From contig NZ_SKBP01000004.1 of NCBI RefSeq assembly GCF_004634195.1, forward strand, positions 124,001-188,000: a stretch of 64,000 bases of DNA, written 5' to 3'. The translations under genes were made by a program, and so were the position numbers. Numbering within the stretch: position 1 is the stretch's first letter; each line of letters begins with the position of its first letter. Positions 2,585-34,516 of the stretch are shown here, one piece after another. The stretch comes from Flavobacterium salilacus subsp. salilacus (GTDB lineage: Bacteria > Bacteroidota > Bacteroidia > Flavobacteriales > Flavobacteriaceae). Below the pieces are notes generated by a model that was not told where the DNA came from, did not search any database, and saw only the letters and a program-made list of their open reading frames with translations.

Positions 2585-4270
2585 ATGAACACACCCTTAC
2601 TCCACATACAAAACGTTACTATTTCCGCCAAAAAAGAAGGCGAATGGACTCCCATTGTAAAAGGGAGCGATTTTGTATTGCATCAAAATGAGATACTGGG
2701 CATTGTGGGCGAATCAGGTTCCGGTAAGTCCGTTACATCTCTTGCCGTAATGGGGCTGTTACCCAAAGGCATTCTGGAAGTAACCGAAGGTAAAATTGAC
2801 TTTGAAGGCAGTAATATTGCAATGCTTTCGCAAAAAACACTCCGAAAAATACGCGGTAACGCCATCAGCATGATATTCCAGGAACCGATGAGTTCCCTGA
2901 ACCCATCGCTGAAATGCGGTTATCAGGTTGCTGAAATATTAAAGGAGCATACCAATTTATCACAAAAAGAAATTAAGGAAACGGTACTTTCACTATTCGA
3001 AAAAGTAAAACTCCCTAACCCCGATAAAATATACAACCGCTACCCGCACGAAATATCAGGCGGGCAAAAACAACGGGTAATGATTGCTATGGCGATAGCC
3101 TGCAAACCCAAAATACTGATTGCTGACGAACCCACTACCGCACTGGATGTAACCGTACAAAAAGAAATTATACTACTGCTGAAAGAACTGCAACAAGAAA
3201 CGGGGATGAGCATTATTTTCATTTCGCACGACCTGTCGTTGGTTTCGGAAATTGCCAACAGGGTATTGGTAATGTACAAAGGCGAAATTGTAGAACAGGG
3301 CGAGGTACGGCAAATTTTCAACAATCCGCAACATCTCTATACCAAAGCACTTATCAGTTCGCGTCCGTCGCTGGATGTGCGCCTGAAACGGCTGCCCACG
3401 ATACAGGATTATCTCACAGAAAATGTAAATACAACCGAAGTAACCCCCAACCAACGAAAGGCTGCGCACGAAAAATTATACAGCCAACCGCCATTACTGG
3501 AAGTGGTTAATGTAGAGAAAGAATATATTTCTTCGGCAGGATTGTTTGGAAAAGAGATAAAATTTAAAGCCGTAGATAACGTTAGCTTTACAATATACGA
3601 GGGTGAAACACTGGGGCTGGTAGGCGAATCAGGTTGTGGTAAATCAACACTTGGCAATGCCATATTACAACTGGATAAACCCACAGCAGGCAAAATACTA
3701 TACAGGGGCACTGACCTCACACAATTACCAACAAAACAAATACGTGAGCTGCGAAAAGAGATACAAATCATTTTTCAGGATCCTTATTCTTCTTTAAACC
3801 CTCGCATTACCGTAGGCAAAGCCATTCTGGAACCTATGCAGGTGCATGGCTTGTATAAAAACAATAAAGAGCGAAAAGAAAAAGTACTGGAAATACTCAA
3901 CCGTGTGGGGCTTAACGAAGAACATTACAACCGCTACCCGCATGAGTTTTCGGGTGGGCAAAGGCAGCGTATCGGCATAGCCCGAACCATAGCCCTGCAA
4001 CCGAAACTGATTGTATGTGATGAATCCGTTTCCGCGCTGGATATTTCGGTACAGGCACAAGTGCTTAACCTGCTGAATGAGCTAAAAGAAAACTTTGGGT
4101 TTACGTATATATTTATCTCCCACGATCTTGCGGTGGTTAAATATATGAGCGATCAGGTACTGGTAATGAACAAAGGTAAAATTGAGGAGATGAATGAAGC
4201 CGATGCGCTGTATGAACATCCGCAAAGGGAATATACCAAGAAGTTGATTGCTGCTATACCGAATAAGTAG
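2585..4270 (+). CDS. ABC transporter ATP-binding protein with two fused ATPase domains (oligopeptide/nickel type, YejF-like)
   Basis: The 561-residue protein contains two complete ABC ATPase domains. Domain 1 has Walker A GESGSGKS (42-49), signature SGGQK (158-162) and Walker B ILIADE (177-182). Domain 2 has GESGCGKS (347-354), SGGQR (456-460) and LIVCDE (475-480). Each is followed by a short C-terminal segment of the DppD/DppF oligopeptide type ([20 protein letters not shown]). This is the arrangement of YejF, which energises an oligopeptide-type importer. Both sites look catalytically competent. No permease or binding protein gene is adjacent, so the partners must be encoded elsewhere. Palindromic repeats flank it on both sides. 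Confidence 0.9.
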
Positions 4271-4274
4271 TTGG

Positions 4275-4393
4275 CAGTCGCAGTTTTCAGTTAATTATCT
4301 TTTGTCATCCTGACGAATTGAAGAATCTTTTCTGAGATTCTTCAATTCGCTTCGCTACTTTCAGAATGACACAATCATTGAAAACTGCAACTG
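4275..4393. repeat. nested palindromic element (dispersed repeat, copy 3 with outer arms)
   Basis: Inner element 4304-4370 starts GTCATCCTGA and ends TCAGAATGAC, the same family as 2394-2469. It is enclosed by an outer 15-base inverted repeat, CAGTCGCAGTTTTCA at 4275-4289 and TGAAAACTGCAACTG at 4379-4393, with one mismatch. It sits between convergent gene ends and might also act as a transcription barrier. Confidence 0.8.
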
Positions 4394-4408
4394 TAAACTG
4401 AATACTGT

Positions 4409-5062
4409 TTAAATTGCCATTTCAGGAATATCGCCTTCTATGATAAGGTTTCCTTCGGTGGCTTTTTGTATTTCCTCAACGGTTACACCCGGAGCGCGTT
4501 CCAAAAGCTTAAAACCTTCGGGAACAATTTCCAGCACGGCAAGCTCAGTAACTACTTTCTTCACACAGCCCACACCTGTTAAGGGTAGTGTACAACGCTT
4601 TAATAGTTTACTTTCGCCTGCTTTGTTTACATGCATCATGGCTACAATAATATTCTCGGCAGAAGCTACCAAATCCATTGCCCCGCCCATACCTTTTACC
4701 ATTTTACCCGGAATTTTCCAGTTGGCAATATCGCCGTTTTCGGCAACTTCCATAGCGCCCAGTATGGTAAGGTCAACATGCTGCCCGCGTATCATTCCGA
4801 AGCTGGTAGCCGAATCAAAAAATGAAGCTCCCGGCAGTGTTGTTATCGTTTGTTTCCCTGCGTTGATGATGTCGGCATCTTCCTCTCCTTCAAAAGGAAA
4901 AGGTCCCATACCCAACACACCATTCTCACTTTGAAATTCTACCGATATATCATCGCGAACAAAGTTAGCTACCAATGTAGGAATACCTATTCCTAAGTTT
5001 ACATAATATCCGTCTTTAACTTCTTTCGCTATTCTTTTTGCGATACCTTCTTTATCTAACAT
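4409..5062 (-). CDS. scoB: 3-oxoacid CoA-transferase subunit B
   Basis: The 217-residue protein is the beta subunit of succinyl-CoA:3-ketoacid CoA-transferase or an acetate/acetoacetate homologue. It transfers CoA from succinyl-CoA to acetoacetate in ketone-body and leucine catabolism. Diagnostic stretches are GIGIPTLV near residues 24-31 and the catalytic motif SENGVLGMGP, in which Glu46 is the predicted covalent nucleophile. Length matches the bacterial ScoB/AtoA subunit. The alpha subunit is encoded upstream on the same strand (5521-6219), but a four-helix-bundle gene and short repeats now lie between them. SCOT and the Ato enzymes cannot be told apart from sequence alone. Confidence 0.92.
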   Translation of the reverse strand: MLDKEGIAKRIAKEVKDGYYVNLGIGIPTLVANFVRDDISVEFQSENGVLGMGPFPFEGEEDADIINAGKQTITTLPGASFFDSATSFGMIRGQHVDLTILGAMEVAENGDIANWKIPGKMVKGMGGAMDLVASAENIIVAMMHVNKAGESKLLKRCTLPLTGVGCVKKVVTELAVLEIVPEGFKLLERAPGVTVEEIQKATEGNLIIEGDIPEMAI

Positions 5063-5077
5063 AATGTATTAATTTAA

Positions 5078-5117
5078 CAATGTAGCAATGTAGCAATGTA
5101 GCAATGTAGCAATGTAG
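5078..5117. repeat. tandem octamer CAATGTAG x5
   Basis: Five exact head-to-tail copies of CAATGTAG, followed by CAATTG. The last unit plus this tail, CAATGTAGCAATTG (5110-5123), recurs exactly in reverse complement at 32907-32920. It lies 3' of the four-helix-bundle gene, between it and scoB. Confidence 0.95.
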
Positions 5118-5132
5118 CAATTGGGCTTCACG

Positions 5133-5480
5133 TTACTTGTTATTTTTGCTGCTACTTAATATTTTATAAACTATTAACCCGAGTTCTGTTATTCTTGGTT
5201 TAAGACTTTCATCAAAAGGATAAGTTGGTGCTTTTTCACATAGCAAAAGCCAATATTTTGTTTCTTCGATTTCCTTTGCTGCAATTTTAACTTTATGAAT
5301 AAAATCGGCTCGGCTTTCTGCATTTTGAGCTTCATGAATATTTGCTCCTATACTTGTCCCTGATTTTAGCAACTGCTTGGCTACAACATATTTTTTGTTG
5401 TTTTCTAAAACCTCACAAAAAGCAATTATGTCTATAGCAAAACTAACCGACTTAGTAACAACCACATTTTCACGCTCCAT
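5133..5480 (-). CDS. four-helix-bundle protein (S23 / 23S rRNA-intervening-sequence family)
   Basis: The 115-residue all-helical protein carries the family signature: an N-terminal SFAIDII helix, then QLLKSGTSIGANIHEAQ, then DFIHKVKIAAKEIEETKYWL. This family was first described from 23S rRNA intervening sequences and is structurally related to the Avd accessory protein of diversity-generating retroelements. Its stand-alone function is unknown. The gene interrupts the scoA-scoB pair. It is bordered on its 3' side by a tandem octamer (5078-5117) and on its 5' side by related AT-rich words (5486-5520). No reverse transcriptase or template repeat is visible, so a retroelement is not supported. 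Confidence 0.88.
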   Translation of the reverse strand: MERENVVVTKSVSFAIDIIAFCEVLENNKKYVVAKQLLKSGTSIGANIHEAQNAESRADFIHKVKIAAKEIEETKYWLLLCEKAPTYPFDESLKPRITELGLIVYKILSSSKNNK

Positions 5481-5485
5481 ATCTT

Positions 5486-5520
5486 CAATTGTTACATTAA
5501 TGAATTGCTATATTATATAA
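5486..5520. repeat. AT-rich flank of the four-helix-bundle gene, related to the 32888-32935 element
   Basis: Contains CAATTGTTACATT (5486-5498) followed by AATTGCTATATTATATAATT. These words resemble CAATTGCTACATTG and AATTGTTATATTAAATAATT in the atpA-atpG intergenic element. The similarity is approximate here, in contrast to the exact 14-mer on the other flank. Confidence 0.55.
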
Positions 5521-6219
5521 TTATTTCTTCCTTACGGTTCGTTGCTCAATTCTCTTTTCGTACTGCTCTCCTTTAAAGATACGCTTTACAAATATACCCG
5601 GTATGTGTATCTCGTTCGGGTCAAGTTCTCCCGCGGGTACAAGTTCTTCTACCTCGGCAACGGTAATGGTTGCAGCACCCGCCATACAGGAATTAAAGTT
5701 ACGCGCCGTTCCTTTAAATATAAGGTTTCCGGCTTCGTCACCTTTCCATGCTTTTACTATGGCAAAATCCGCTTTGTAGGCCTCTTCCAGTATGTGCATT
5801 TTACCGTTCCACTCACGTGATTCTTTACCTTCGGCTACTTCTGTACCATAGCCGGCTGGTGTATAAAATGCAGGAATACCTGCCTGTGCCGCGCGGCATT
5901 TTTCGGCAAGCGTACCCTGTGGCGTAAGCTCCACCTCAAGTTCGCCGCTAAGCATTTGTCTTTCAAATTCGGCATTTTCGCCTACGTATGAAGAAATCAT
6001 TTTTTTTATTTGCTTTTTTTGCAGCAACAGCCCAAGACCAAAGTCATCAACCCCGGCATTGTTAGAAATACAGGTAAGATTGGTAATCCCTTTTTTAACC
6101 AACTCGTTAATACTGTTCTCCGGAATACCGCAAAGACCAAAGCCGCCCAGCATTATAGTCATACCGTCTTCTACCCCTTGTAAGGCTTCCTCAACGTTTT
6201 GTACTTTTTTATTAATCAT
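5521..6219 (-). CDS. scoA: 3-oxoacid CoA-transferase subunit A
   Basis: The 232-residue alpha subunit pairs with ScoB to form the CoA-transferase. It shows the glycine-rich CoA-binding segment [10 protein letters not shown] (25-34) and [20 protein letters not shown] typical of AtoD/ScoA. The open frame extends upstream to 6282, but those 21 residues are Arg/Lys/Phe-rich and unlike family N-termini. The ATG at 6219 ([12 protein letters not shown]) is the expected start. The PBP1A terminator lies just upstream, so scoA probably has its own promoter. Transcription towards scoB must cross the inserted four-helix-bundle gene, which is co-oriented. Confidence 0.92.
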
Positions 6220-6251
6220 ACAATTTATTTTAGTTTTCGTGCATAAATATA

Positions 6252-32868: not shown

Positions 32869-32887
32869 TTCTAATTTAAAAATGTAT

Positions 32888-32935
32888 CAATTAGTCAATA
32901 ATATAACAATTGCTACATTGACTAATTGTTATATT
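32888..32935. repeat. interleaved inverted-repeat element between atpA and atpG
   Basis: Two perfect 12-base inverted repeats interlock: CAATTAGTCAAT (32888-32899) with ATTGACTAATTG (32917-32928), and AATATAACAATT (32900-32911) with AATTGTTATATT (32924-32935). The right arms overlap, so only one hairpin can form at a time. The centre, CAATTGCTACATTG (32907-32920), is the exact reverse complement of 5110-5123 beside the four-helix-bundle gene. Confidence 0.88.
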
Positions 32936-32941
32936 AAATAA

Positions 32942-34516
32942 TTAATATTTTGCCGATATTTCTGCTGCTGCTTTTTCAAGCACGTCTGTAAGTTCGTCTG
33001 TAAATTTACCTGCTTTAAGCGCATCCAGAGTGTCTCTGTGTTTTGCGTTAAGGTACTCCAGGTAATCTCTTTCAAACTCTTTTACTTTGCTTACAGGTAC
33101 TTTTTTAAGCAAGTTTTTTGAACCTGCATAAATAATAGCTACCTGATTTTCTACTGTAAACGGGTCGTTAACTGCCTGCTTTAATATCTCAACGTTTCTT
33201 CTTCCTTTTTCAATTACATTTAATGTTGCAGCATCAAGGTCAGAGCCAAACTTAGCGAAAGCTTCAAGCTCACGGAACTGTGCCTGGTCAAGCTTAAGTG
33301 TACCCGCTACTTTTTTCATTGATTTAATCTGAGCGTTACCACCCACACGCGATACCGAGATACCCACGTTAATTGCAGGACGTACACCTGAGTTGAATAA
33401 ATCGGACTCCAGGAATATCTGACCGTCTGTAATCGAAATTACGTTGGTTGGGATATATGCCGAAACGTCACCCGCCTGTGTTTCGATGATAGGAAGCGCC
33501 GTAAGCGATCCGCCACCTTTTACAATTGGTTTTAACGAATCCGGAAGGTCGTTCATGTTCTTCGCAATATCATCATCGGCAATAACTTTAGCCGCACGCT
33601 CTAACAATCTTGAGTGAAGGTAGAAAACGTCCCCTGGGTAAGCCTCACGTCCCGGTGGTCTTCTAAGCAAAAGCGACACCTCACGGTATGCAACCGCCTG
33701 TTTAGACAAATCATCATAGATGATAAGTGCCGGACGACCTGTGTCACGGAAATACTCACCAATTGCAGCACCTGCAAAGGGAGCGTAAACCTGCATCGGG
33801 GCAGGGTCAGAAGCATTTGCAGCAACAATAACGGTATAAGCCATTGCGCCTTTTTCTTCTAATGTTTTTGCAATACCTGCTACTGTAGAAGCTTTTTGCC
33901 CAACAGCAACATATATACAGAATACAGGCTTGCCTGCGTCATAAAATTCTTTTTGGTTCAGGATGGTGTCGATACAAACGGTTGTTTTACCGGTTTGACG
34001 GTCACCAATTACAAGTTCACGCTGACCGCGTCCTACAGGAATCATGGCATCGATAGCTTTAATACCTGTTTGTAACGGCTCGGTTACCGGCTGACGGAAG
34101 ATAACACCCGGTGCTTTACGCTCCAAAGGCATCTCATACAGGTCGCCACCAATAGGACCTTTACCATCTATAGGGTTACCCAGTGTATCTACCACACGTC
34201 CTACTATTTGCTCGCCTGTTTTTAGGGAAGCAATACGCTGTGTTCTTTTTACGGTAGAACCTTCGCTAACGCCAACAGAAGGCCCTAACAATACTACGCC
34301 CACATTGTCTTCTTCAAGGTTCAATACAATACCTTCTAACCCGCTGTCGAATGCTACTAACTCACCATATTGTGCGTTAGATAATCCGTAAACACGGGCA
34401 ATACCGTCACCTACCTGAAGTACTGTTCCTACTTCTTCAAGGGTAGCACCCGATTCAAAACCGGACAATTGTTTCTTTAATATTGCTGAAATTTCAGCAG
34501 GTTTAATTTCTGCCAT
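32942..34516 (-). CDS. atpA: ATP synthase F1 subunit alpha
   Basis: The 524-residue subunit forms the alpha3beta3 head with the beta subunit, which is not encoded in this window. The P-loop is GDRQTGKT (171-178). The alpha-type stretches [40 protein letters not shown] and the terminal [19 protein letters not shown] are present. The arginine finger lies in the [15 protein letters not shown] region. Length is normal. It is 40 bases downstream of atpH. Confidence 0.97.

Follow-up and report, generated by a model that had tools for sequence, protein, structure and literature searches.

The 23S rRNA genes of Coxiella, and those of other organisms as well, can contain intervening sequences (IVS) that carry an open reading frame (ORF) of the S23/IVP type. 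In Coxiella, this PF05635 ORF lies within a stem of terminal inverted repeats, the whole measuring ~430-450 nt, and RNase III cuts the IVS out of the 23S rRNA precursor (PMC4990558). Both the origin and the mobility of the IVS are described there as still unclear. The stretch of Flavobacterium salilacus subsp. salilacus DNA analyzed here (64,000 nt, hereafter the window) contains a gene for a four-helix-bundle (4HB) protein of the same family, positioned between scoA and scoB, two genes of fatty-acid metabolism. Together with its flanks, this gene has three features of the 23S rRNA IVS: a PF05635 ORF, terminal inverted repeats that form a predicted stem, and a similar size. Unlike the IVS, however, the 4HB element lies between protein genes of an operon, its neighbors being scoA and scoB rather than rRNA; each arm consists of an array of 7-8-nt words, and these vary between copies; and such elements are often present several to a genome, in addition to word-only relatives. 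It is in one tested feature, location in 23S rRNA, that the 4HB element falls outside the 23S IVS.

A related four-helix-bundle fold is also found in Avd of diversity-generating retroelements (bAvd; PMC10053308). Unlike Avd, the 4HB gene of the window has no reverse transcriptase (RVT_1) nearby; the single RVT_1 (PF00078) match in its own genome is on contig C9, and the window is on C12. Dependence on a reverse transcriptase of the RVT_1 family was considered and rejected, as RVT_1 matches are present in 49 of 101 genomes of the genus but absent from such 4HB-rich ones as G097 and G028. Other members of the family have been reported from cas loci (18 PF05635 genes; PMC3936711), and a four-helix gene of F. 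columnare, between the genes for guanylate kinase and nicotinic acid mononucleotide adenylyltransferase, is tabulated among phage elements in an article whose available part says nothing of repeats (PMC5524665). Within the accessible portion of the open-access PubMed Central literature, no description of word brackets around 4HB genes was found. The window 4HB protein has no PADLOC match and its best PHROG match has an E of 0.1, so these searches place it in no known anti-phage defence or phage family.

In the REP/BIME system with its RAYT, a gene is positioned between inverted short repeats, gene-less derivatives exist, and REP sequences are common genome-wide. The 4HB element resembles this system both in having a gene between inverted short repeats and in having gene-less derivatives; it differs in that 4HB copies have their own words and in the family of the protein. 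Heptamer arrays are also known as the STRR/heptanucleotide repeats of cyanobacteria. Arrays of the TAACTGA heptamer have been described in Beggiatoaceae, cyanobacteria, and five Bacteroidetes (PMC4679880). Like the words considered here, these are heptamers in intergenic gaps, also in some Bacteroidetes, but they consist of one direct-repeat word, and the available part of PMC4679880 describes neither a 4HB gene nor an inverted bracket nor words particular to one copy. The 11-subunit protein TRAP, which binds 11 short (G/U)AG repeats (PMC4027176), provides only an analogy for the recognition of words that a 4HB protein might perform; TRAP is a different protein. As regards a classical transposon or IS, there is no other ORF of at least 80 aa within 5063-5520 and the terminal repeats are not fixed.

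The 4HB gene between scoA and scoB

The protein encoded by the window 4HB gene (Table 1) matches both PF05635 (E 1.7e-21, 76.9 bits, cut-off 33.8) and TIGR02436 (E 2.2e-24, 85.7 bits, cut-off 24), and 2rld is the sole solved chain that matches it (E 2.4e-24). The relatives 2rld and 2gsc have five chains each; together with the title of a reference cited in PMC3936711, these chains are the basis on which the family is referred to as pentameric.

Table 1. Coordinates of the features in the window
Feature	Position	Strand	Basis
scoB, 3-oxoacid CoA-transferase subunit B, TIGR02428, downstream operon neighbor	4409..5062	-	profile search
3' word arm: five exact CTACATTG (= CAATGTAG on +), degenerate words, CAATTG	5063..5123	-	sequence, TRF, RNA fold
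4HB ("23S IVP") gene, PF05635/TIGR02436, 115 aa	5133..5480	-	profile search
5' word arm: degenerate CAAT words, inverted orientation	5481..5523	-	sequence, RNA fold
scoA, 3-oxoacid CoA-transferase subunit A, TIGR02429, upstream operon neighbor	5521..6222	-	profile search
Word-only hairpin without 4HB gene, CAATTAGT / CAATGTAG words	32882..32945		picked by eye

A sequence-only reading of this DNA had placed five octamers plus CAATTG on one side of the gene and related words on the other, and both observations hold. Direct reading of the sequence (5078-5123) gives five exact copies of CAATGTAG at 5078-5117, followed by CAATTG at 5118-5123, and TRF reports an 8-nt unit in 7.4 copies over 5063-5121. 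The scoA-side words (5481-5523) are an imperfect inverted copy of this array, with 36-nt arms that are 75% complementary, and the element's 5' arm overlaps the scoA stop codon TAA (5521-5523). Because the other flank carries the inverted word family, a single stem that surrounds the window ORF is predicted for the transcript; its minimum-energy RNA fold has 31 arm-arm base pairs and encloses the ORF. The doubled octamer, allowing up to two mismatches, has 4 matches in the window versus 0.05 expected from shuffles. The inverted flank score of the locus is 27, a value that exceeds the 99% point of 23 over 6343 sliding positions and that is also reached elsewhere; by this score the 4HB gene ranks second among 56 window genes, behind one that lies between dispersed palindromes. 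No Rfam family is present in the window at gathering score.

The 3.01-Mb genome to which the window belongs has 8 4HB genes, and these copies were compared by reading 250 bases on either side of each gene. The sequence-only reading had asked whether the other four-helix-bundle genes carry the same words. Many do carry bordering repeats, but these are made of their own words: TAGATAA at L003, AATTAGA at L006, AATTTGAAAAT at L007, AAAGTCAT at L002, GTCTGATG at L005, and CTAAGAAT at L001, with the words of L004 unclear by eye. Thus, the architecture recurs and the literal word CAATGTAG does not. The latter is private to the window copy, and a genome-wide CAATGTAG repeat family was rejected because the doubled octamer has only 1 match outside the locus, with two mismatches. 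The word AATTGCTACATT has 6 sites versus 3 in a reversed control, which is too weak for a family claim. In a 464-kb sample of this genome that includes 6 of its 8 4HB genes, an inverted flank score of at least 26 is seen for 4 of the 6 versus 8 of 392 control genes; the low scores of L004 (15) and L001 (19) do not stand out from those of the controls. L007 and L002 (G000 C12:249836-251340), two unlike 4HB genes that each have separate words, occupy successive gaps of a single operon, which we take to be suf (sufB-sufC-sufD).

Words that flank 4HB genes across the genus and the phylum

PF05635 genes are present in 232 of 296 genomes drawn from the phylum, and 99 of 101 genus genomes have between 1 and 17 4HB copies. 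To score their flanks, the 100 nt upstream of a gene were compared with the reverse complement of the 100 nt downstream, the flanks of other copies serving as the null. The genus set consists of 123 of 130 unique copies (flanks of at least 120 nt, protein of at least 95 aa); the phylum draw, of 68 copies from 68 loci, among which there are still a few from genomes of the window's genus (e.g. L188, L191); and the named-genome set, of 76 copies from 80 loci, these being the best 80 of 586 confirmed loci, picked by similarity to the query. Pooling the three sets gives 267 copies, or 264 after removal of duplicates and N-rich flanks. (It should be noted that most of the genus and phylum loci in these sets match PF05635 strongly, which leaves weak relatives under-represented.)

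Inverted flanks reach the 95% point of mismatched flanks in 75 of 123 genus copies (15 of 18 representatives, taking one per protein cluster), 42 of 68 copies of the phylum draw, and 57 of 76 copies from named genomes, the last among the best 80 of 586 loci. In the direct orientation, the same point is reached by 31 of 123 genus copies (7 of 18 representatives), 15 of 68 in the phylum draw, and 18 of 76 in the named genomes (again among the best 80 of 586). About 25-40% of 4HB copies fail the inverted test. Eight named loci among the best 80 of 586 lie outside the Bacteroidota (L256, L280, L282, L298, L304, L308, L310, L311). Seven of these are usable, and 5 of the 7 pass with scores of 35-55, from Chlorobiota, Ignavibacteriae, Verrucomicrobiia, Lambdaproteobacteria, and Pontiellaceae; SAR324 L282 (17) and Treponema L311 (16) fail. 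Matching inverted word flanks are seen around the 4HB genes of L280, L298, L308, L310, and L256. Since the non-Bacteroidota loci are mostly from metagenome bins, binning errors are possible.

Within the arms, there are often four or five words, which are 7-8 nt long and degenerate. A strong 7- or 8-nt period is found in 175 of the 264 copies versus 1 of 264 when shuffled, with a lag match of 0.393 at 7 and 0.339 at 8 versus ~0.30 after shuffling. Tests on word columns used those copies whose word arrays are long enough, 111 for heterogeneity and 120 for register. With both arms pooled, variation is concentrated in some columns in 58 of 111 copies (combined p 1.9e-52); a first core-column test done arm by arm, which has low power, gave p<0.05 for 18 of 240 arms (combined p 0.0005). 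In the register test, in which letters are shuffled within word columns, the variable columns of the two arms show no in-register pairing beyond column composition (11 of 120 with p<=0.05, combined p 0.90). Because these columns are unpaired in register, the arms appear to be a common core in opposite orientation rather than an exact hairpin copy; exact hairpin copying or template switching between the arms was rejected on the same result. Predicted RNA folds have at least 15 arm-arm pairs in 165 of 264 cases, versus 56 of 264 when the downstream arm is taken from another copy.

How the words relate to the protein can be seen by comparing copies at loci with non-homologous flanking genes. When the proteins are at least 65% identical, the words match in sense in 46% of 136 pairs (antisense, 13%). 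In 500-pair samples from non-homologous loci, the match in sense is 11% at 55-65% protein identity, 2.2% at 45-55%, and 0.8% below 45%. Permuting word sets among copies gives a mean sharing of 4.4% and a maximum of 11% in 40 shuffles. The cross-locus match is present in 6 of 11 protein clusters, one of which gives 86 of the pairs. Since words are shared by related 4HB genes even when their loci are unrelated, gene and repeats seem to travel together. To that extent, the earlier proposal that the gene was inserted as a passenger of a short repeat element is borne out; its other part is not, as there is no single repeat family, CAATGTAG being private and the words of the other copies different. 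The best reading is that the words belong to the element of the 4HB gene, rather than the gene being carried as a passenger by one fixed repeat. In G040 (contig C17), two 4HB proteins that are 96.6% identical (L051 and L075) are encoded in neighboring gaps of one beta-oxidation-type operon, separated by a gene that is presumably for 3-hydroxyacyl-CoA dehydrogenase; the main block of DNA homology between the two loci begins at the start codon and continues for 52 nt beyond the stop.

Of 129 copies in 14 clusters of orthologous loci, 91 have a higher score for their own, matched flanks than their mean score against the flanks of orthologues. This is true of more than half of the members in 9 of the 14 clusters, of half in 2, and of fewer in 3 (L149, 1 of 7; L144, 1 of 5; L175, 2 of 5); in the L210 cluster the medians are 31 matched versus 16 cross. 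Statistically, then, if not in every copy, the words at orthologous loci change and yet the match between the two sides tends to be retained. The same holds for the words as a whole, which by these statistics are copy-specific, periodic, inverted between the sides, and conserved in part, again not in every copy.

Both neighbors are in sense with the 4HB gene in 203 of 211 resolved cases, counted before duplicate removal on the three sets (99 of 101 in the genus, 47 of 50 in the phylum, and 57 of 60 in the named genomes, among the best 80 of 586); among control genes of the window's own genome, 172 of 392 are codirectional with both neighbors. A median of 66 nt separates the 4HB gene from the stop codon upstream (measured in 243 of 264 copies), and the start codon that follows is a median of 45 nt away (measured in 246 of 264).

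The explanation that we favor, and regard as probable, is that the window locus represents a family of ~450-bp elements, in which a 4HB ORF core with inverted arms of 7-8-nt words is carried in sense within operons, much as an IVS is carried in rRNA. Such an element would be co-transcribed with its host operon, and its arms would pair with each other to enclose the ORF in a stem, like those of the 23S rRNA IVS. Cleavage of the stem, which is carried out by RNase III in the rRNA case, would then separate the 4HB message from the operon, and for this reason an insertion between operon genes could be tolerated. More speculatively, the 4HB protein, whose relatives have five chains, might bind its own words, one per subunit; this would explain both the similar cores at fixed spacing and the linkage of the words to the protein. 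Word-only hairpins would be products of internal deletion, comparable to non-autonomous derivatives. That many 4HB genes across the phylum are bracketed by their own words suggests that a family of mobile mini-elements has gone largely unnoticed. A broader proposal is doubtful, though worth stating: that these mini-elements are phylum-wide, each pentameric protein reading and co-evolving with a private word, and that they reside in operons as excisable RNA hairpins accompanied by gene-less satellites. Copy-specific inverted words provide the PF05635 family with a visible anatomy and a home at the level of the operon, and 4HB elements would explain some of the degenerate 7-8-nt intergenic arrays in these genomes.

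The scoA-scoB junction in relatives and the origin of the element

ScoB is found in 98 of 101 genus genomes, 6 of which are outside the sample, and 91 of the 92 scoA-scoB junctions were resolved (L342 is unresolved). Sorted into classes by simple patterns, 28 of the 91 Flavobacterium junctions are bare, with 6-14 nt between the genes. A further 8 contain a 4HB gene, always in sense (that of L035 is frame-broken); 24 contain AATTAGAT-type word arrays without a 4HB gene, with L022 apparently misplaced among them; 12 are of a CAGT type; 8 are of a AATTTGAA type, L344 and L388 apparently being misplaced there; and 11 are other. Empty sites, which the sequence-only reading had suggested looking for in relatives, are thus present. 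Its description of the two subunit genes as normally adjacent is true of part of the sample, the 28 bare junctions. Given a site that can be bare, filled, or word-only, and the anatomy of the words, both mobility and RNA recognition are directly testable.

The 4HB genes in the gap are of two unlike types, which have CAAT words in one case and AATTTGAA words in the other. Orthologues of the CAAT type are present in G000, G007, G055, and G044, with proteins 71-78% identical to that of the window. These have kept CAAT words on both sides, with letters that differ. Five identical octamers are seen in just one of the four, the window copy, and therefore look like a recent expansion. The dN/dS is 0.06-0.11 in five of the six orthologue pairs, with dS near saturation, and is not computable for one pair; with such values, the window-type protein appears to be kept rather than decaying, and the 4HB ORF at scoA-scoB is under purifying selection. 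In L357, L361, L371, L373, and L385, where scoA and scoB are 229 to 1193 nt apart, AATTAGAT hairpins seem to be repeated, four of these five loci having been seen at their ends only. A long, near-perfect array of GAGACTGAAAACT-like units, without a 4HB gene, lies between the two genes in L354 (G056).

Word-only hairpins raise the question of which came first. In the 464 kb of the window's own genome there are about 4 of them, as judged by eye, versus 6 4HB copies. That of the window has CAATTGCTACATTG in common with the 3' arm of the window's 4HB element; it is positioned in a co-directional gap, by eye beside an ATP synthase gamma gene. A strict AATTAGATAATT hairpin pattern is found in 17 of 101 genus genomes and 0 in the reversed control. 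Hairpins of AATTAGAT and 4HB genes of the MTFNEKY type (E<=1e-40) occur in 17 of 101 and 8 of 101 genomes, respectively, with both in 4, a comparison that is confounded by clade. Inspection by eye suggests that L038 and L349, both of the AATTTGAA type, retain the arms and remnants of a 4HB gene; they are absent from the 4HB profile-search matches at E<=1. These apparent remnants suggest that word-only arrays can be what is left of 4HB elements, and therefore the gene seems to form the core, with the repeats as its termini.

The opposite order of events, which corresponds to the model of the sequence-only reading and in which word hairpins arose first as a mobile repeat element and the 4HB gene was inserted into or captured by the loop, is unlikely. 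It would account for gene-less hairpins at many sites (the window, L327, L330), for the 24 junctions classed as word arrays without a gene, and for the strict hairpin in 17 genomes with its empty reversed control, but it does not sit well with the greater number of 4HB copies than of word-only hairpins in the own-genome sample, with the apparent loss of the gene in L038 and L349, or with words that track protein type across loci, mainly in sense. We also think it improbable that the element is simply resident, non-mobile, and vertically inherited, with the 4HB protein as an RNA-binding autoregulator or operon insulator and the words as its binding sites. The 4HB gene occupies scoA-scoB in only 8 of 91 Flavobacterium species, in two different types, and close protein relatives are found at loci without homologous flanks; these facts argue against strict residence, even though purifying selection at scoA-scoB, the retention of orthologous loci across species (14 clusters), and the sense orientation of 203 of 211 copies are all in its favor. 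Very unlikely is an origin without function, by slippage of 7-8-nt units and quasi-palindrome template switching with 4HB genes lying where drift is tolerated, for although the window octamers seem to have expanded recently from degenerate words such as those of the orthologues L135, L136, and L137 and long (GATAATT)n arrays exist (e.g. L152), column-concentrated variation is unexpected under neutral duplication, the in-register variable positions that template switching predicts are absent (p 0.90), and such arms are rare in control genes.

Other repeats were seen in the same DNA. At 4271-4408 of the window, inverted CAGTnnn arms surround a palindromic TGTCATCCTGACG... repeat, and similar palindromes are present at 2391-2584. 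Because the palindromes on its two sides resemble each other, the gene at 2585-4270 scores highest for inverted flanks in the window (64). Elsewhere in the genome (L315, 17444-17826), a tandem CATTTTGTAATA array, unrelated to 4HB, is positioned shortly before a tRNA-like gene.
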